Source of the DNA: Polyangiaceae bacterium
GTDB lineage: Bacteria > Myxococcota_A > Polyangia > Polyangiales > Polyangiaceae
Length of the DNA: 56,034 nucleotides
Assembly (NCBI GenBank): GCA_009780955.1
Contig: WQZB01000025.1
Location: 1 to 56,034 of the forward strand
Direction: 5' to 3'
The notes under the pieces are model-generated. The model saw nothing but the letters and a program-made list of their open reading frames with translations, did no database searches and was not told the DNA's origin. This document shows positions 6,164 through 55,586 of the stretch, piece by piece. How positions within the stretch are numbered: the stretch's first letter is position 1; each line of letters opens with the position of its first letter. Made by a program: the position numbers and the translations under genes.

Positions 6164-7072
6164 GTGAGCGAGTTCGACGCAAAAACTGAAGTCACGACGA
6201 TCGTCCAAATACCGTTGGGCAATGACGCCGAACAGCGACCGAAAACCAGCGATTGCCTCGTCACAATCTACACGAAAGACACGTCTCTTCTCGGCAAGCG
6301 TTTCGTCCTCGATTTCACACCGGTGCGCATCGGGCGTGGCTCTGAGAATCACATCGCCCTCGATAGCGACGCCGTTTCGCGTCGTCATGCGCACCTCGAA
6401 CAACGCGGCGAGGTATGGTGGGTAGTCGACAACGGATCAACGAACGGCACTTTCGTCAACGACGAGCCAATCAGGCACGAAGCCAGCCTCGCCAATGGCG
6501 ATCGCATCAAAGTCGGCCCGACGATTTTCAAATACCTCTCGGGCGCCGACGTCGAGGCGCAGTACCACGAAGAAATCTACCGCATGATGATCATCGATGG
6601 TCTCACGCAGGCGCACGTGAAGCGGTACCTGCTTGAAACCCTCGAAAAAGAGGTCATTCGCGCGCACCGTCACGCGCGCGATCTTGCCCTCATCATGTTC
6701 GATATCGACCACTTCAAAAGAATCAATGACAACCACGGGCATCTTGCGGGCGACTTCGTGCTGAAAGAGCTCGCGCGCATCGTGCAAGACCGAGTCCGTC
6801 GCGACGAGGTCTTTGCGCGCTACGGCGGCGAAGAGTTTGCCATCATCTTGCCTGAAACGAACCTCACGGGCGCGCGCGCACTTGCCGAAGGCCTGCGCGA
6901 GCGAATCGCACAAAGCCGATTCATCTTTCAAGGCAACATGATTCCAGTCACAATTTCAATCGGCGTGGCCCTTCTCTCCGCGGCCGAAAAAACTGGGCCC
7001 GATCTCATTTCTAGCGCCGATGCCAAGCTCTATGAAGCAAAGCGAGCCGGCCGCAACCGCGTTGCCAGTTGA
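6164..7072 (+). CDS. FHA-domain diguanylate cyclase
   Basis: 302 residues with a GTG start. Residues about 30-125 form a forkhead-associated domain (GRGSENHI, SRRHAHLE, NGSTNGTF), which binds phosphothreonine. Residues about 140-300 form a GGDEF domain with an intact active-site GGEEF near residue 222, so it should make cyclic-di-GMP from two GTP. The position of the RxxD inhibitory site reads Arg-Arg-Asp-Glu, so product inhibition may be altered. FHA-GGDEF fusions are common in Myxococcota, where Ser/Thr kinases are abundant. It has no membrane segment and should act in the cytosol. It sits between lpxK and the aminotransferase with short gaps. Confidence 0.92.
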   Translation: MSEFDAKTEVTTIVQIPLGNDAEQRPKTSDCLVTIYTKDTSLLGKRFVLDFTPVRIGRGSENHIALDSDAVSRRHAHLEQRGEVWWVVDNGSTNGTFVNDEPIRHEASLANGDRIKVGPTIFKYLSGADVEAQYHEEIYRMMIIDGLTQAHVKRYLLETLEKEVIRAHRHARDLALIMFDIDHFKRINDNHGHLAGDFVLKELARIVQDRVRRDEVFARYGGEEFAIILPETNLTGARALAEGLRERIAQSRFIFQGNMIPVTISIGVALLSAAEKTGPDLISSADAKLYEAKRAGRNRVAS

Positions 7073-7103: not shown

Positions 7104-8414
7104 ATGCTGCCCGACATGAAAACTACGCTGCCTGGGCCGCGTTCGTGCGAGCTCGCGGCTCGACTCTCCGCCGTTGAATCACCCGCGGTGGGCGCACGGC
7201 GAGATGCACGAAGCTTGGTGTCCGGTGCCTCGCACGCCCCCATTTTCTACGAGCGCGGGCGAGCGTCCAACGTTTACGACGTTGACGGCAATCGCTACGT
7301 CGACTTCGCGGCGGGTTTCGGGGGGCTCTTGCTCGGCTACCCGCCAAACGCAGCAACCACCGCCAGCATCGCGGCGATGACCGAATTGCCGCTCGCACTT
7401 GGCGACGTCTACGCATCCGAGTCGAAGGTACGAGCGTGCGAGGCCATCGCGGCTCTCTACCCCGAACCGGGTGCACGCGTGATGCTCGGCCTATCAGGCG
7501 CCGACGCCGTGTCGTGCGCGCTCAAAACCGTGGCTCTCGCGACAAAGAAGACTCGCGTCGTTGCCTTTGCGGGCAGCTATCACGGCTTGTCGCATGGGCC
7601 GCTCGCAGCGCTTGGTTTCGCGCCAAGCTTCCGCGAACCGTTTTCCGCGCAGCTCGGCAACTTCGTCACGTTCGCGCCTTATCCGTCGTCCGTGAGCCAT
7701 CTCGACGACAGCATCGAAGCGGTCCGCTCGGCATTTGCGCACGGCGACGTGGGTGCCGTTCTTGTCGAGCCAATCCTTGGGCGCGGAGGATGCGTCGTAC
7801 CGCCGAGCGGTTTTCTTGGCGCACTTCGCACGATGTGTAACGACGACGGCGCGCTGCTCGTGGCCGATGAAGTGTGGAGCGGCGTTGGCCGAACAGGAAC
7901 GATGTTCGCGTTCGAGCACGAAGGCATCACTCCAGACATCGTTTGCCTTGGCAAAGGCCTTGGCGGAGGCATTGCGGTTTCCGCGTGCCTTGGCCGCGCC
8001 GAAGTCATGGCAGCGTGGGGCGCATATGGCGGCGCGACCATCCACACGGGCACGCACTTCGGATCGCCTCCTGCTTGTGCAGCGGTCCTGGCAACGATCG
8101 CGGCAGCACGCGATCTCGCACCTCGAACCATCGAGCTAGGGCATCGCTTTCGCGCAAAGCTCGAAATGGCGTGCGCCAACGCATTGGCACATGCATCCGT
8201 GCGTGGCCGCGGGCTCATGGTGGGCGTCGAACTAATGAATGCGCAATTCGCGCTACGCGTATCGCGCGCGCTTTTGGAACGCGGGTTCATCGTGCTCACA
8301 GGTGGCGTGGGCGGCAACGTTCTTACGCTCTCGCCACCGCTGACCATCTCGCCAGAGCAACTTGACGCCTTCGCAGCCGCGCTCGGCGATGTGCTCGCAT
8401 CGAGTCGGCCATGA
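7104..8414 (+). CDS. class III (PLP-dependent) aminotransferase
   Basis: About 436 residues. Carries class III/ornithine aminotransferase motifs: LLVADEVWSGVGRTG (PLP-ring Asp) and CLGKGLGGG with the Schiff-base Lys near residue 284. Related to glutamate-1-semialdehyde, omega-amino-acid and diamine transaminases. I used the ATG at 7104; ATG 7116 is also possible. The stop overlaps the start of the LuxE-like gene by 4 bases, and LuxE in turn overlaps the LuxC-like gene, so the three are translationally coupled. In that context the likely amino acceptor is an aldehyde produced by the LuxC-like reductase; this is inference. Confidence 0.88.
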   Translation: MLPDMKTTLPGPRSCELAARLSAVESPAVGARRDARSLVSGASHAPIFYERGRASNVYDVDGNRYVDFAAGFGGLLLGYPPNAATTASIAAMTELPLALGDVYASESKVRACEAIAALYPEPGARVMLGLSGADAVSCALKTVALATKKTRVVAFAGSYHGLSHGPLAALGFAPSFREPFSAQLGNFVTFAPYPSSVSHLDDSIEAVRSAFAHGDVGAVLVEPILGRGGCVVPPSGFLGALRTMCNDDGALLVADEVWSGVGRTGTMFAFEHEGITPDIVCLGKGLGGGIAVSACLGRAEVMAAWGAYGGATIHTGTHFGSPPACAAVLATIAAARDLAPRTIELGHRFRAKLEMACANALAHASVRGRGLMVGVELMNAQFALRVSRALLERGFIVLTGGVGGNVLTLSPPLTISPEQLDAFAAALGDVLASSRP

Positions 8415-9577
8415 TCATCAAGGCGAACCTCGCTCGCAGCGTTGCGCTCCACGAGCGAGCTCGTGCACTTGTATCGGCATTCGAGCGAGGCGAGCCACCG
8501 CCCGAGTCGAGGGACGCACTCGCATGTGATATCGCGCGATTCCAAGCCGACACAATCGATGGTTACTCGCGTCTTTGCCGCGCGCGCGGCGTCAACATTA
8601 CGTCGTTGACTTGTGCCTCCGACATTCCCGCGGTTCCCACTGACGCGTTCAAGCTCACTCGCGTGGCTACGTTCGAACCACGCGAAGCAAACGTCGTGTT
8701 TCGTACGAGCGGCACAACTCAGGGCATCGAGGCGCGCGGCGAGCACGCCATGCGCGACGGCACGACGTACGACGCAGCCGCCGTTGCCTTTGGCAAGTAC
8801 TGGCTCGCCCGAGATCTCGCGCCCGGCAAAGTCATGGTCCTCGTGCTTGCGCCATCTGCCGAGCAAGTGCCCGATTCATCTCTCATTCACATGTGCCAGC
8901 AGTTCGCCAAGGCATTCGGGCACCCTGCATCGCAAAACGATACGTTTCTCGTGCAGGATGGAGTCATCAATCTGTCTCGGTTTCATAAGCGCGTTGCGAC
9001 TGCGACAGCGCAAAATATGCCCATTTTGCTACTCGGAACGTCGTTTGCGTACGTTCACTTCCTTGATGCACTAGACGCACGCGTAGGGGCGTATGGCCAT
9101 ACGCCCCTACCCGCAGGCAGCCGCGTCATGCAAACCGGCGGGTACAAAGGGAAAAGCCGCGAGGTGCCTGCAGCCGCGCTTCGTCGTGAGCTCGCACGCG
9201 CGTTGCGTGTCGACGAGCGCGAGATCGTCGCCGAATACGGCATGACCGAGCTCTCGAGCCAATTTTACGAGAGAACCCTCTTCGATGCTGCTTCGCCAAA
9301 GGGCATTTTTGCCGAACCTCCGTGGGCTCGTGTCGTGCCCGTCGATCCCAACTCGCTTGTGCCCGTAGCTGATGGCGATGTCGGCATTGCGAAAATCATC
9401 GATGCCATGAACGTAGATAGCGCCGTTGCCGTGCTCACCGAAGATCGCGTACGGCGAGTCGTGGGCGGTTTCGAACTCTTGGGTCGAGCGCCTGGTGCAA
9501 GAGCGCGAGGCTGCTCGATTGCCATCGACGAGCTGCTCGGTTCCACGCGCTCCACACGCGAAAAGACGGCGCCATGA
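8411..9577 (+). CDS. LuxE-like acyl-protein synthetase
   Basis: 388 residues of the LuxE/ANL-like adenylating family. The phosphate-binding FRTSGTTQG motif lies at about residues 97-105, and AEYGMTEL near residue 276 matches the second adenylate-binding segment. In bioluminescent bacteria LuxE activates a fatty acid as acyl-AMP and passes it to the LuxC reductase. Here it starts at an ATGA overlap with the aminotransferase and overlaps the LuxC-like gene by 4 bases. No luciferase (luxAB) or LuxD thioesterase is nearby, so the carboxylic acid substrate may come from general metabolism. A perfect 28-base palindrome is embedded in the coding sequence near residue 225. Confidence 0.85.
   Translation: MIIKANLARSVALHERARALVSAFERGEPPPESRDALACDIARFQADTIDGYSRLCRARGVNITSLTCASDIPAVPTDAFKLTRVATFEPREANVVFRTSGTTQGIEARGEHAMRDGTTYDAAAVAFGKYWLARDLAPGKVMVLVLAPSAEQVPDSSLIHMCQQFAKAFGHPASQNDTFLVQDGVINLSRFHKRVATATAQNMPILLLGTSFAYVHFLDALDARVGAYGHTPLPAGSRVMQTGGYKGKSREVPAAALRRELARALRVDEREIVAEYGMTELSSQFYERTLFDAASPKGIFAEPPWARVVPVDPNSLVPVADGDVGIAKIIDAMNVDSAVAVLTEDRVRRVVGGFELLGRAPGARARGCSIAIDELLGSTRSTREKTAP
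9083..9110. repeat. 28-nt perfect palindrome, copy 1 (inside the LuxE-like gene)
   Basis: A fully self-complementary 28-mer with outer arms GTAGGGGCG and CGCCCCTAC and a 10-base centre TATGGCCATA. It is read in frame as part of the LuxE-like protein (VGAYGHTPL). A second 28-mer with the same outer arms but a different, still self-complementary centre lies at 13776-13803. Two copies with conserved arms suggest a REP-like dispersed palindrome. Confidence 0.75.
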
Positions 9578-10626
9578 TACGAAGCGCGGAATCACGCGCG
9601 ACGGATGTTTGGCGCATTGTTTTTTCGGCGCGCGACGTGGCCGCAGCGCGCGCGGCAATTCTTGACGACATTGTTCGGTCAACGAATCTATCGCGCGAAG
9701 GCGTTGAGCTCGCTTTCGAAAAGCACCTCGAGCTCGATCCAAGTGACGCCGACATCGCGAATCTTGTCGCGGCCGCAGGCGACGCCGAACGTGTCACAGT
9801 CGTTCTGTCGTCGAACGTGTTCGTTGGCGCGCTTCGAGCCATCGCACTTGCAAGGGCCGCATCTGCTGATGTGGTGGTGCGCCCGTCGCGACGCGATCCA
9901 ACCTTTGCACGTGCCCTTGTTCGGGCTGCCGCGGCTCGCGGGGACTCGTCGTTACGTCTCTGTGAAAACTTCTGCGTTGCCTCTGCGCAACAAGGCGAAA
10001 TCCATATTTACGGCAGCAACGAAACCATCGCGGAAGTTTCTGCCAAGACACGCGTGAAGATTATAGGGCACGGTAGCGGCATGGGCATCGCCTGGGTTTC
10101 GGGCCACGCCGACATGAACATGGCAGCCGCCGCACTTGCCTACGATGTCGTGGCGTTCGATCAGCACGGTTGCTTGAGCCCGCGCATCGCGCTCGTCGAA
10201 GGTGACAACGTGCGTGCGACGAGCTTCGGCCGCGCGCTTCACGAGGCGCTCGAGCAGCTTGGGCGCAAAGTCGAGCGAGGTACTGTTTTGCCGGCCGAGC
10301 AAGCAGAGGCCGAGCGGTACGTGGCGACCATGACGTACGTGGGCCGCGTCCTTGTTGGAAGTGCACACGTCGTCGCGATCGCGCCGGTCGGCTCGCCGCT
10401 CGTTTTGCCCCCGCCAAACAGGCACGTGCACATTGCATCCGTTGCAAACGCCGAGGCTGCCACGGTGCAGATTGCGCCGCTGTCTCGTGGAATCATCACA
10501 GTTGGAAGTGACAACCCCGATTCGGCACGAACGATCGCGCCGCCTTGGGCACGCATCGCAAGACTTGGCTGGATGCAACGTCCCCCGCTAGATGGACCGG
10601 TCGACCAACGCCCGCGTTCGATTTGA
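9574..10626 (+). CDS. LuxC-like acyl reductase (aldehyde-forming)
   Basis: 350 residues of the LuxC acyl-CoA/acyl-protein reductase family, within the aldehyde dehydrogenase superfamily. The catalytic cysteine is visible in FDQHGCLSPR (near residue 200), and IIGHGSGMGIAWV looks like the nucleotide-binding segment. It should accept the acyl group from the LuxE-like partner and reduce it to an aldehyde with NADPH. LuxC of light-emitting bacteria is usually longer (about 480 residues), so this is a short version. It is the last gene of the aminotransferase-LuxE-LuxC set and converges on ppa; a GC-rich stem-loop (arms CCTGCGGC and GCCGCAGG, 10639-10658) lies just past it, within the ppa 3' end. 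Confidence 0.85.
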   Translation: MIRSAESRATDVWRIVFSARDVAAARAAILDDIVRSTNLSREGVELAFEKHLELDPSDADIANLVAAAGDAERVTVVLSSNVFVGALRAIALARAASADVVVRPSRRDPTFARALVRAAAARGDSSLRLCENFCVASAQQGEIHIYGSNETIAEVSAKTRVKIIGHGSGMGIAWVSGHADMNMAAAALAYDVVAFDQHGCLSPRIALVEGDNVRATSFGRALHEALEQLGRKVERGTVLPAEQAEAERYVATMTYVGRVLVGSAHVVAIAPVGSPLVLPPPNRHVHIASVANAEAATVQIAPLSRGIITVGSDNPDSARTIAPPWARIARLGWMQRPPLDGPVDQRPRSI

Positions 10627-28768: not shown

Positions 28769-29359
28769 ATGGGCTTTTCAGAAAAGATCCGAATGCCAAG
28801 CGCCGCCGAATCGTTGCCTGGGCGAAGCGAGCCCGTCTTTGTAGCTGGGAAACATGCCGTGCTCGGTACACGCATGAAAGCGCCGTGGCCGGAGGGAATG
28901 CAGATTGCGATGTTTGGAATGGGATGCTTCTGGGGTGCAGAAGAAAAGATGTGGCAACTCGATGGCATGTACTCCACACAAGTTGGTTATGCGGGAGGTT
29001 TTACTCCGAATCCCACATACGATGAAGTTTGCACCGGAATGACCGGACATGCGGAGGTGGTGCGCGTCGTGTTCAATCCGCAAATTCTAAATTACGAGAG
29101 TGTGCTCCGCGCATTTTGGGAAAATCACGATCCGACGCAAGGCATGCGCCAGGGCAACGACGTCGGCACGCAATACCGATCCGCCATTTATGTGTTTGAT
29201 GAGGATCAAGCACGCATTGCGTCAGCGTCGGCCACGGCTTCTCAGAAAGAGCTGAACGCAGCCGGTTATGGCGACATCACGACGGAAATCACGAAGGCAC
29301 CGATATTTTATTATGCGGAAGACTATCATCAGCAGTACCTCGCGAGGTATCCAGGCTAA
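28769..29359 (+). CDS. msrA: peptide methionine-S-sulfoxide reductase, copy 1
   Basis: 196 residues from ATG 28769. Reduces methionine-S-sulfoxide in proteins using a catalytic Cys (GCFWGAEE, Cys near residue 53). [19 protein letters not shown] and [10 protein letters not shown] complete the MsrA fingerprint. Its TAA overlaps the nnrS ATG (TAATG), so the pair is coupled. A second copy at 50332 differs at 4 of the 188 shared residues and lacks the first 8 residues. The frame is open to 28652, but that extension is unlike MsrA. Confidence 0.93.
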
Positions 29360-30588
29360 TGTCTACGCATCGATCGCTCCTCCGTCACGATTCGCCCACG
29401 CTGTCGGATTCGCGCTCGTCATTGGCTCTTGGCGAAAAAGGGTTTCGCCCATTCTTCCTTCTAGCCGCTGTTTTTGCTGCGTTCGTGCTTCCGCTCTGGC
29501 TCCTCGTTCTCGAGAACTTCACGGGGCTCAACGCCGAATTCATGCACCCGTACTGGCATGCCCATGAAATGGTGTTCGGCTTTTCCGTTGCGGTGATCAC
29601 TGGCTTCCTCCTCACGGCCGTCGGCAATTGGACGCAGCGCGAAACCGTCGTGGGGAGGCCACTGCTCGCGCTCGCAGCGCTGTGGACTCTCGGGCGCATC
29701 GCCATCGCGCTCTCGTCGTTCGTTCCTCGCGGCATTGCCGCCGTGATCGATCTCGCGTTCATCCCCGCGCTCATGGTGGGGATCGGGCGAGCGCTCGCCC
29801 TTGCGAAGAACAAGCGCAATTATGTCATGCTGGTCGTGCTCTTCGCGCTATGGCTGTCCAATCTCGCCGCGCACGCTGGGGTGCTCGGCATCGCGGGCAT
29901 GTCGGAGTGGCAGCGTCGAGGATCGATCGTTGGAATCGACATCGTCATTCTCCTGATTCTCGTCATCAGTGCGCGCGTCATTCCCATGTTCACGCGCAAT
30001 GCCACACGCGAGGCGTCGATTCGTTCATGGCCTCGGTTCAACATGGCAAGCGCCATCTCGATGGTGATGTTCACGATCTGCGATATCGCGATCCCAACGC
30101 ATCACATAACAGCCGCCTTTGCCGCTCTTACGGGCGTGGCCGTCGCCGCGCGGACCATTCCGTGGGGGACTCGCCACACCACACGCGATCCGCTTCTTTG
30201 GGTCCTTCACGTGGGCTCTTGGTGGATCCCAGTCGGCCTTTTTCTTCGCACAATTTCGTCTTTCACGTCCACGGTTCCGAGCGCTTCATCAACACACGCG
30301 CTAACCGTTGGAGCCATTGGCTTGCTCACACTAGGGATGATGGCGCGCGTGGCACTTGGGCATTCCGGCAGGATGCTGGCGGTGTCGCAACCTACAACGG
30401 TTGCATTCGTCGCGCTCACGGTTGCCGGGCTCGTTCGCGTCATCGGGCCGCTCTTCGAATCAATGTATACCGCATCTATTGTCGTTGCGGGCGTGCTTTG
30501 GAGTCTGGCCTTCGTGCTCTACCTCGTTGTCTATCTGCCCATCCTCATCGCGCCTCGCGTTGATGGCAGGCCAGGGTAAGAAGTCGCC
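28789..30588 (+). repeat. direct repeat unit A (msrA-nnrS), intact copy
   Basis: Homologous to 50328-51197 in the same orientation. Sequence identity is high with scattered substitutions, and copy B lacks two internal stretches of nnrS. Identity begins at CCGAATGCC and ends at AAGTCGCC in both copies. Confidence 0.9.
29359..30579 (+). CDS. nnrS: NnrS family haem-copper membrane protein, copy 1
   Basis: 406 residues, about 12 predicted membrane segments. It begins with LALGEKGFRPFFLLAAVFAA, then HPYWHAHEMVFGFSVAVITGF, the conserved His-rich segment of NnrS. NnrS proteins protect cells from nitric oxide and nitrosative stress and often sit in denitrification loci. Coupled to msrA (repair of oxidised Met), and about 22 kb from norE/norF-like genes, which supports a nitric-oxide theme. 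A truncated copy lies at 50898. Confidence 0.88.
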   Translation: MSTHRSLLRHDSPTLSDSRSSLALGEKGFRPFFLLAAVFAAFVLPLWLLVLENFTGLNAEFMHPYWHAHEMVFGFSVAVITGFLLTAVGNWTQRETVVGRPLLALAALWTLGRIAIALSSFVPRGIAAVIDLAFIPALMVGIGRALALAKNKRNYVMLVVLFALWLSNLAAHAGVLGIAGMSEWQRRGSIVGIDIVILLILVISARVIPMFTRNATREASIRSWPRFNMASAISMVMFTICDIAIPTHHITAAFAALTGVAVAARTIPWGTRHTTRDPLLWVLHVGSWWIPVGLFLRTISSFTSTVPSASSTHALTVGAIGLLTLGMMARVALGHSGRMLAVSQPTTVAFVALTVAGLVRVIGPLFESMYTASIVVAGVLWSLAFVLYLVVYLPILIAPRVDGRPG

Positions 30589-50307: not shown

Positions 50308-50331
50308 AAAAAATGGCAAACCAAAGACCGA

Positions 50332-50898
50332 ATGCCAAGCGCCGCCGAATCGTTGCCTGGGCGAAGCGAGCCCGTCTTTGTAGCCGGGAAACATGCGGTG
50401 CTTGGTACACGCATGAAAGAGCCGTGGCCGGAGGGGATGCAGATTGCGATGTTTGGGATGGGATGCTTCTGGGGTGCAGAAGAAAAGATGTGGCAACTCG
50501 ATGGCATTTATTCCACACAAGTCGGTTATGCGGGAGGTTTTACTCCGAATCCCACATACGATGAAGTTTGCACTGGAATGACCGGACATGCGGAGGTGGT
50601 GCGCGTCGTATTCAATCCGCAAATTCTAAATTACGAGAGTGTGCTCCGCGCATTTTGGGAAAATCACGATCCGACGCAAGGCATGCGCCAGGGCAATGAT
50701 ATCGGCACGCAATACCGATCCGCCATTTATGTATTTGATGAGGATCAAGCACGCATTGCGTCGGCGTCGGCCACGGCCTTTCAGAAAGAGCTAAACGCAG
50801 CCGGTTATGGCGACATCACGACAGAAATCACGAAGGCACCGATATTTTATTATGCGGAAGACTATCATCAGCAATACCTCGCGAGGTATCCAGGCTAA
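50332..50898 (+). CDS. msrA: peptide methionine-S-sulfoxide reductase, copy 2
   Basis: 188 residues from ATG 50332 ([11 protein letters not shown]). Differs from copy 1 at four residues (Ala/Glu, Met/Ile, Val/Ile, Ser/Phe) and lacks its first 8 residues because the repeat begins inside the gene. Catalytic Cys in GCFWGAEE (near residue 45) is intact, so it may work if transcribed. Its native upstream region has been replaced by the end of the phenol block, so it has probably lost its promoter. TAATG overlap with the nnrS remnant. Confidence 0.85.
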
Positions 50899-51188
50899 TG
50901 TCTACGCAGCGATCGCTCCTTCGTCACGATTCACCCACGCTGTCGGATTCTCGTTCGTCATTGGCTCTTGGCGAAAAAGGGTGCGGCATTGCCGCCGCGA
51001 TCGATCTCGCGTTCATCCCCGCGCTCATGGTTGCCGGGCTCGTTCGCGTCATCGGGCCGCTCTTCGAATCAATGTATATCGCATCTATTGTCGTTGCGGG
51101 CGTGCTTTGGAGTCTGGCCTTCGTGCTCTACCTCGTTGTCTATCTGCCCATCCTCATCGCGCCTCGCGTTGATGGCAGGCCAGGGTAA
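50898..51188 (+). pseudogene. nnrS remnant with two in-frame internal deletions
   Basis: 96 codons against 406 in the intact copy. The frame follows the intact protein to LALGEKG, jumps to GIAAAIDLAFIPALMV, then to AGLVRVIGPLFESMY and the native C-terminus. The second junction lies at a short match (GCGCTCA-GGT) present at both ends of the missing piece in copy A. Most membrane segments and the His motifs are gone, so no NnrS activity is expected. Confidence 0.85.
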
Positions 51189-51239
51189 GAAGTCGCCGGA
51201 GAGTTGGCCCGGCGCTGCGCGGATTGGGACGATCGCGAA

Positions 51240-54332: not shown

Positions 54333-54908
54333 TTACCAGGTGTAGTTCGGAAGAGGCTTTGGCGCGGCGTCGTGCTGGGATGCATCCGCGCCTGCGTCAG
54401 TCACCGTGCCCGCATCAGTACCCGTTCCAGAATCCGCACCTGCGTCGGTTGTGACTGATGCGTCGCGGAAACAGAATTTGATTGCATACAGCGGAAGTTG
54501 CATGTCTTGGTCGTCCGGATTTTTTGGCGGGAATAACCTCTCTCCATGCGTCGCCGCAGGGTCGTAAGAGAAGACGTCCTGCCTCAGCGCATCTCCGTAA
54601 ACATAGACAACAGCAATTGGGGTGGTTGCCAACCAATCGAAGTATACGCCGTCCGAATTGAAGATAGTCGCCGTCCCTCCGTTGCCCAAGTTGAGGGTGC
54701 CGTTCGCGCCGCCAGACCACGTTGCCGAATAGAGAACGTCGTCGCGGGATGCTACGCCAGAGTTGCATTCTAGGTCTCGAGTTAGTGACTGAACAACCCC
54801 ATTCCCGCTCGGCTGAGTTTCCAACTGGGCGTCGGAGCCCTGGCTGGCGCACGCGCCAATTCCAACTGCAGATGCAACGGCCATGGGGACAATATGTATG
54901 AATCGCAT
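54333..54908 (-). CDS. lipoprotein with Asp/Ala/Thr-rich tail, paralogue 1
   Basis: 191 residues. Signal peptide with lipobox (VASAVGIGAC). A beta-rich middle part includes LNLGNGGTATIFNSDGVYFDW and a predicted surface strand YAIKFCFRD. The tail is low complexity (TDAGADSGTGTDAGTVTD) and ends PNYTW. Unknown function; this tail type is common in Myxococcota exported proteins. Paralogous to the next gene. Confidence 0.75.
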   Translation of the reverse strand: MRFIHIVPMAVASAVGIGACASQGSDAQLETQPSGNGVVQSLTRDLECNSGVASRDDVLYSATWSGGANGTLNLGNGGTATIFNSDGVYFDWLATTPIAVVYVYGDALRQDVFSYDPAATHGERLFPPKNPDDQDMQLPLYAIKFCFRDASVTTDAGADSGTGTDAGTVTDAGADASQHDAAPKPLPNYTW

Positions 54909-54995: not shown

Positions 54996-55586
54996 TTACC
55001 AGGTGTAGTTCGGAAGAGGAGGCTTTGGCGCGGCGTCGTGCTGGGATGCATCCGCGCCTGCGTCAGTCACCGTGCCCGCATCAGTACCCGTTCCAGAATC
55101 CGCACCTGCGTCGGTTGTGACCGATGCATCTCGAAAACAGAATTTGATTGCATACAGCGGAAGTTGCATGTCTTGGTTGTTTGGGTCCTTTGGCGGAGAT
55201 AATCCCTCTCCACTTGTCGACGCAGGGTCGTAATAGAAAACGCGACCTTGTACCGCATCTCCGCGAACAATGATCATGGCGATCGGAGTCGTTGCCGACC
55301 AATCGAAATATACGCCGTCCGAATTGAGGATGGTGACGGTCTCTCCGTTGCCCAAGTCGAGGGTGCCATCTGCACCGCCAGACCACATTGCCGCGTATAG
55401 GATATCGTCGGGAGATCGAGAATCTGTATCGCATTCGGTGTCTCGAGTAAGTGACTGGACAACCCCATTCCCACTCGGCTGAGTTTCCAACTGGGCGTCG
55501 GAGCCCTGGCTGGAGCACGCGCCAATGCCAACTGCAGATGCAATGGCCATAGGTATAATATATACAAAAGTACTGTCGAATCGCAT
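54996..55586 (-). CDS. lipoprotein with Asp/Ala/Thr-rich tail, paralogue 2
   Basis: 196 residues, same design as paralogue 1: signal AIASAVGIGACSS, a strand region LDLGNGETVTILNSDGVYFDW, and the same tail. From QDMQLPLYAIK to the end the two differ only by one added Pro. An 87-base spacer separates them, so they may be co-transcribed. Function unknown. Confidence 0.75.
   Translation of the reverse strand: MRFDSTFVYIIPMAIASAVGIGACSSQGSDAQLETQPSGNGVVQSLTRDTECDTDSRSPDDILYAAMWSGGADGTLDLGNGETVTILNSDGVYFDWSATTPIAMIIVRGDAVQGRVFYYDPASTSGEGLSPPKDPNNQDMQLPLYAIKFCFRDASVTTDAGADSGTGTDAGTVTDAGADASQHDAAPKPPLPNYTW

Follow-up and report, generated by a model that had tools for sequence, protein, structure and literature searches.

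What would an operon of a class III aminotransferase, a LuxE-like and a LuxC-like gene make when no luciferase genes stand beside it? Such a trio lies at positions 7104–10626 of the window analyzed here, a stretch of 56,034 nucleotides of contig WQZB01000025.1 from a Polyangiaceae bacterium (assembly GCA_009780955.1). The tRNA wobble modification queuosine is widespread, and the bacterial pathway to it is regarded as solved. The sequences and the distribution of the three genes suggest that the operon is very probably a non-homologous replacement for QueC and QueF in queuosine biosynthesis, leading from 7-carboxy-7-deazaguanine (CDG) to 7-aminomethyl-7-deazaguanine (preQ1). The genes, with the functions proposed for them, are:

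7104..8414, + strand: class III aminotransferase, pyridoxal phosphate (PLP)-dependent (PF00202 / Aminotran_3, 265 bits); proposed 7-formyl-7-deazaguanine to preQ1 aminotransferase
8411..9577, + strand: LuxE-like acyl ligase of 388 amino acids (PF04443, 40.7 bits); proposed ATP-dependent activation of the CDG carboxylate, with a thioester on C368
9574..10626, + strand: LuxC-like thioester reductase of 350 amino acids with an aldehyde dehydrogenase fold (PF05893, 62.2 bits); proposed reduction to 7-formyl-7-deazaguanine

All three Pfam scores exceed the gathering scores. The 4-base overlaps of the open reading frames described in the initial annotation were seen again (ATGA at 8411–8414 and at 9574–9577, all on the + strand). 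The start of the aminotransferase given there, 7104, also fits, since the alignments with homologues begin close to this ATG; the longest mechanical open reading frame begins at the ATG at 7020. The absence of luxAB and luxD was confirmed among the genes neighboring the trio.

The catalytic cysteine that had been placed near residue 200 of the LuxC-like protein was found at exactly this position (C200, in 89 of 89 homologues), and the profile of the relatives matches LuxC of PDB entry 7xc6 around the DQxxC cysteine. The PDB chain closest to the AlphaFold model of the protein (pLDDT 93) was LuxC 7xc6_A (TMq 0.77), followed by aldehyde dehydrogenases. In the LuxE-like protein the cysteine of a GCS motif near the C-terminus (C368) was present in 93 of 95 homologues, the SGT motif (S100/G101/T102), K246 and E280 being also conserved among them, and the profile of its relatives aligns with LuxE of 7xc6 over nearly the full length (329 positions, E 1.5e-23), the terminal GCS cysteines coinciding in this alignment. 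Both proteins missed the NCBIfam Lux equivalog cut-offs widely (42.5 versus 550 for LuxE, 20.4 versus 750 for LuxC).

In the aminotransferase the PLP lysine K312 (numbering of the 464-residue open reading frame, here and below; codon about 7953–7955) is invariant in 86 of 86 homologues, and the hallmarks of the subfamily are R255 (86 of 86) and L190 (82 of 86). Residues R141, E211 and R398 of the Escherichia coli gamma-aminobutyrate (GABA) aminotransferase, which bind the carboxylates of its dicarboxylate substrates, align with L190, R255 and T436. Carrying these residues at those sites, the enzyme is therefore not of the standard ArgD/GabT type, which fits an unusual substrate without proving one. 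NCBIfam gave only general matches (e.g. acetylornithine or GABA aminotransferase, PigE) and no equivalog; the predicted structure (pLDDT 78) was not used. The genome encodes four other class III aminotransferases, named by sequence motifs and not by model cut-offs: ArgD-like, BioA-like, HemL-like and an omega-aminotransferase, that of the trio being the fifth. As the HemL-like enzyme is encoded elsewhere in the genome, the possibility raised earlier that the trio enzyme is a glutamate-1-semialdehyde aminomutase was dismissed. An alternative step of arginine, lysine or tetrapyrrole synthesis was likewise rejected, ArgC being present and the ArgD-, HemL- and BioA-like enzymes being separate genes.

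The trio is confirmed as a real gene arrangement that recurs phylum-wide, far beyond chance. LuxC homologues were present in 52 of 58 relatives and LuxE in 228 of the 284 genomes of the phylum, in 223 of them as a strong match. The order aminotransferase–LuxE–LuxC recurs, all three genes standing together in 66 of the 88 fetched loci, many with 4-base overlaps, so that the concern of the initial annotation that the trio might not extend beyond its source genome was put to rest. In the families f27, f35, f44, f54 and f55, LuxE lies apart from the aminotransferase gene, a clear orthologue of which (417–516 bits) was found elsewhere in the genomes tested. In f44, LuxE and LuxC are on different contigs in five genomes, and the aminotransferase is on a third contig in G283, the sole f44 genome where its contig was sought. 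Aminotransferase-like matches in LuxE-negative genomes reached at most 290 bits, in comparison to 417–516 bits for the true orthologues, and LuxC was found in none of ten such genomes. The three genes persist together after losing linkage and therefore act, most simply, in one pathway. No biosynthetic neighbor gene was conserved beside the trio phylum-wide, and for this reason the distribution of the trio was used to find the pathway.

QueC activates the carboxylate of CDG. In the normal route CDG is converted to the nitrile preQ0 by QueC, and preQ0 to the aminomethyl compound preQ1 by QueF (PMC11570991). An initial comparison of 25 genomes revealed full-length QueC in eight of the ten trio-negative genomes and in none of the 15 trio-positive ones, with one weak relative of 89 bits. 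Among the 284 genomes of the phylum, full-length QueC was present in 38 and QueF (76 bits or more) in 31, none of the latter shared with strong LuxE. When strong LuxE was tabulated against QueC, three genomes had both, 220 only LuxE, 35 only QueC and 26 neither, most of the last being incomplete and from families otherwise carrying the trio; the genome lists for the tabulation of LuxE, QueC and QueF were transferred by hand. The switch takes place inside the class of the window, its own order having the trio and other orders QueC and mostly QueF, and it recurs outside the class. The source genome has no QueC (the only matches being of about 21 bits) and no QueF.

The genes on both sides of the missing steps are retained. 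QueA was found in 267 of the 284 genomes, including 211 of the 223 trio genomes, and wherever the surroundings of queA were inspected in trio genomes (ten of them), tgt adjoined it. QueE was detected in 29 of the 30 trio genomes tested (E ≤ 1e-18 or better), also in the source genome (C7:57187–57822, 254 bits to a QueE model), where queA and tgt stand side by side on contig C34, each with a score above its NCBIfam cut-off. QueD was seen in the trio genomes G029 and G047 (above the TIGR03367 cut-off), G018 and G283. In G036 a stretch of about 15 kb on a single contig contains FolE, the trio and QueE, all in one orientation. In G029 QueD is encoded about 2 kb 3' of LuxC, on the strand of the latter, and in G018 it lies close to the trio. 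No Rfam match to a preQ1 riboswitch was found in the part of the window searched or in 16 trio loci. Keeping QueE, Tgt and QueA, the trio genomes should therefore make CDG and use preQ1, without the two known enzymes between them.

The same distribution could arise if the trio made some other primary amine and its lineages imported preQ1, the complementarity with QueC and QueF being a coincidence of lineage. Salvage of preQ1 via several transporter families is known (PMC11130926), transporters were left out of the survey, and independent gene switches are few. What speaks most strongly against simple salvage is QueE: an organism that imports preQ1 does not need CDG and could dispense with this enzyme, yet it is kept in nearly all trio genomes tested, and the switch occurs within the class of the window and again outside it. 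We consider import very unlikely.

The trio probably forms a second, previously unrecognized de novo route to preQ1 and queuosine via LuxE, LuxC and a class III aminotransferase, one that would bypass preQ0 and replace QueC and QueF through most of the phylum. We infer every reaction, substrate and the order of hand-over as follows. FolE, QueD and QueE would make CDG, the carboxylate of which LuxE would adenylate, holding the acyl group as a thioester on C368. The acyl group would pass to C200 of LuxC, and its reduction there by NAD(P)H would give 7-formyl-7-deazaguanine, from which the aminotransferase would form preQ1. Tgt would then insert preQ1 into tRNA, and QueA would continue towards queuosine.

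The trio might also act on CDG and yield a different 7-deazaguanine, e.g. an aldehyde or amine for DNA or a secondary metabolite. The genetic evidence does point more clearly to the pool of substrate, CDG, than to a particular product, and 7-deazaguanine modifications of DNA exist (PMC6884629). With the preQ1 users Tgt and QueA kept together with the trio, and no DNA-modification gene conserved near it, such a product appears extremely improbable.

Several observations weigh against the preQ1 route. The Fisher value of the tabulation, about 1e-24, ignores the relatedness of the genomes and therefore overstates their independence; about 40 families carry the trio and 13 QueC, with few switches between them. 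The trio and que genes are seldom physically linked. In the source genome, where QueD was not sought genome-wide, it was not located, and the survey of que genes left out QueG/QueH as well as preQ1 transporters. Twelve of the 223 trio genomes gave no QueA, and the QueE matches were weak (68–82 bits) in G073, G249 and G206 and unconvincing in G296. G059 has QueA, but neither the trio nor QueC. G183 shares QueC with other members of its family, f51, and has LuxE and LuxC, but no detected aminotransferase. An unexplained QueC-like gene accompanies the trio in G202.

Other exceptions were also noted. G123, one of the three genomes with both LuxE and QueC, carries the trio and two QueC genes. The latter lie in the cluster L235:7716–15263 together with QueD, QueE, a gene resembling FolE2 and one for a distant TGT-domain protein; by its gene content this cluster is likely to be a 7-deazaguanine DNA-modification island. 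The QueC-like matches of G030 and G102 are weak. Six trio genomes (f31/f33) gave a weak match to the QueF family (58–64 bits), and the two of these QueF-family proteins that were read, L239:7653–8231 (−) and L240:8151–8735 (−), from trio genomes without QueC, have no cysteine in the region of the QueF motif. Nine QueC-positive genomes had no strong QueF match, and that step needs another explanation in them; this is possibly another gap, at the conversion of preQ0 to preQ1. Among the L173–L179 genomes and G093, G194, G282, G273, G294 and G310, several are QueC- and QueA-positive with no strong QueF.

The initial annotation had read the operon as converting an acid via an aldehyde to an amine, with a fatty or other carboxylic acid as substrate, or with an amino-lipid as product. 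The order of the reactions finds support in family membership, the conserved catalytic residues and the strict co-occurrence of the three genes, and acid-to-amine conversion as such is already known from PtTamA/PtTamH (PMC9594044). The lipid substrate was not borne out, no lipid or fatty-acid gene being linked phylum-wide and the distribution being complementary to that of QueC and QueF. Conversion of a fatty or other lipid acid to a fatty amine or amino-lipid by LuxE, LuxC and the aminotransferase, like the synthesis of the tambjamine tail, does have points in its favor: characterized LuxE and LuxC use long-chain acids (annotation of 7xc6), PtTamA/PtTamH make a C12 amine from a C12 acid (PMC9594044), and a lipase-like alpha/beta hydrolase gene lies between the aminotransferase gene and LuxE in five relatives. 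That gene is limited to near relatives and resembles an exported lipoprotein, no acyl carrier protein (ACP), lipid synthase or acyltransferase is conserved beside the trio, and both Lux-like proteins fall far under the Lux equivalog cut-offs. A lipid product would also leave the mutual exclusion with QueC and QueF and the retention of QueE, Tgt and QueA unexplained, and we regard it as decidedly unlikely. Precedents for turning acids into amines exist in the literature searched, but none of it connects a lipid amine with these bacteria, and a lipid link was dropped. The gene for the lipase-like, seemingly exported hydrolase was seen beside LuxE in L052, L054, L055, L057 and L064 only, and between the aminotransferase gene and LuxE where the contig includes the former.

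The neighbors of the trio are an FHA-GGDEF gene and an LpxK-like gene on the 5' side and, on the opposite strand, an inorganic pyrophosphatase gene on the 3' side. The FHA-GGDEF gene (6164–7072, +) is directly 5' of the trio, a position kept in most family members, and it is 67–79% identical to the copies of the relatives, a conservation exceeding that of the trio itself. As functional clues the FHA-GGDEF, metallophosphatase, NUDIX and hypothetical neighbors were set aside as lineage-bound and uninformative, and a hemB-like gene near the trio of the window because it did not recur in relatives. In f44 a class I aspartate aminotransferase gene is directly 5' of LuxE in all seven genomes read (loci L117 and L147–L152); it was set aside, since orthologues of the trio aminotransferase exist elsewhere. 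LuxE of G283 is followed by a gene for HMG-CoA reductase; the presence of this gene beside LuxE there, or beside the aminotransferase gene in G139 and G195, did not recur in f44 or in other f27 genomes and was discounted as a clue.

Elsewhere in the window a pair of genes for peptide methionine sulfoxide reductase and NnrS is duplicated (28783–29443 and 50323–50982; 30411–30588 and 51020–51197) with 96–99% DNA identity, the second nnrS copy being shortened. The pair flanks a block at about 31.5–50.3 kb that includes genes for phenol hydroxylase and pyruvate carboxylase. Third-position GC is raised in this block (about 0.75–0.85 versus 0.65), which looks like an acquired catabolic island. Two tandem lipoprotein-like paralogues on the minus strand (54333–54908 and 54996–55586) are 85% identical in DNA.

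Reconstructions of the queuosine pathway class organisms as makers or salvagers from QueC and QueF as markers (PMC11570991, PMC11130926). If the proposed route is true, many bacteria capable of making preQ1 have wrongly been classed as incapable of it, RNA modification becomes one of the functions of LuxE- and LuxC-family enzymes, the pathway map is extended by a 7-deazaguanine aldehyde, and an orphan acid-to-amine operon gains a concrete substrate. Among open-licence papers, the only ones covered, neither a link of LuxE or LuxC to queuosine nor a de novo route independent of QueC and QueF was found, a prior description elsewhere being possible.

In comparison to known systems, the trio resembles the LuxC–LuxE fatty acid reductase of luminous bacteria (Photobacterium; PDB 7xc6) in the C-terminal GCS cysteine of LuxE and the DQxxC of LuxC. 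It differs from it in the short LuxC (350 versus 477 amino acids), in that luxD and luxAB are not adjoining, in the retained aminotransferase accompanying it and in the proposed substrate, a heteroaromatic acid. PtTamA/PtTamH of tambjamine YP1 and PigE of prodigiosin synthesis likewise lead from an acid or thioester via an aldehyde to an amine with a class III aminotransferase (PMC9594044; PMC8341465), but they belong to secondary metabolism and consist of fusions that include an ACP and a thioester reductase reported to be a relative of acyl-ACP reductases rather than of LuxC, whereas the trio consists of three separate proteins with no ACP and a LuxC-type reductase; its aminotransferase scored 219.5 with the NCBIfam PigE model, the cut-off of which is 850. 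The vanillin aminotransferase of Capsicum forms an aryl-methylamine from an aromatic aldehyde by class III-type transamination (PMC10987797), but it is a plant enzyme with a different substrate and no linked LuxE or LuxC. A precedent exists for each kind of step in the route: acid to aldehyde in LuxC–LuxE, acid to amine in PtTamA/PtTamH, and an aromatic aldehyde in the vanillin aminotransferase. With QueC and QueF the trio would share the start, CDG, and the end, preQ1, of the pathway (PMC11570991). An ATP-dependent activation of the CDG carboxylate as the first step would also be common to both. Its enzymes are non-homologous to these two, a thioester and an aldehyde are proposed instead of a nitrile, the nitrogen would come by transamination, and the two enzyme sets almost never share a genome in the survey. 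As it stands, the route of the trio would be a variant of a known pathway, with the same endpoints, unrelated enzymes and a different intermediate.

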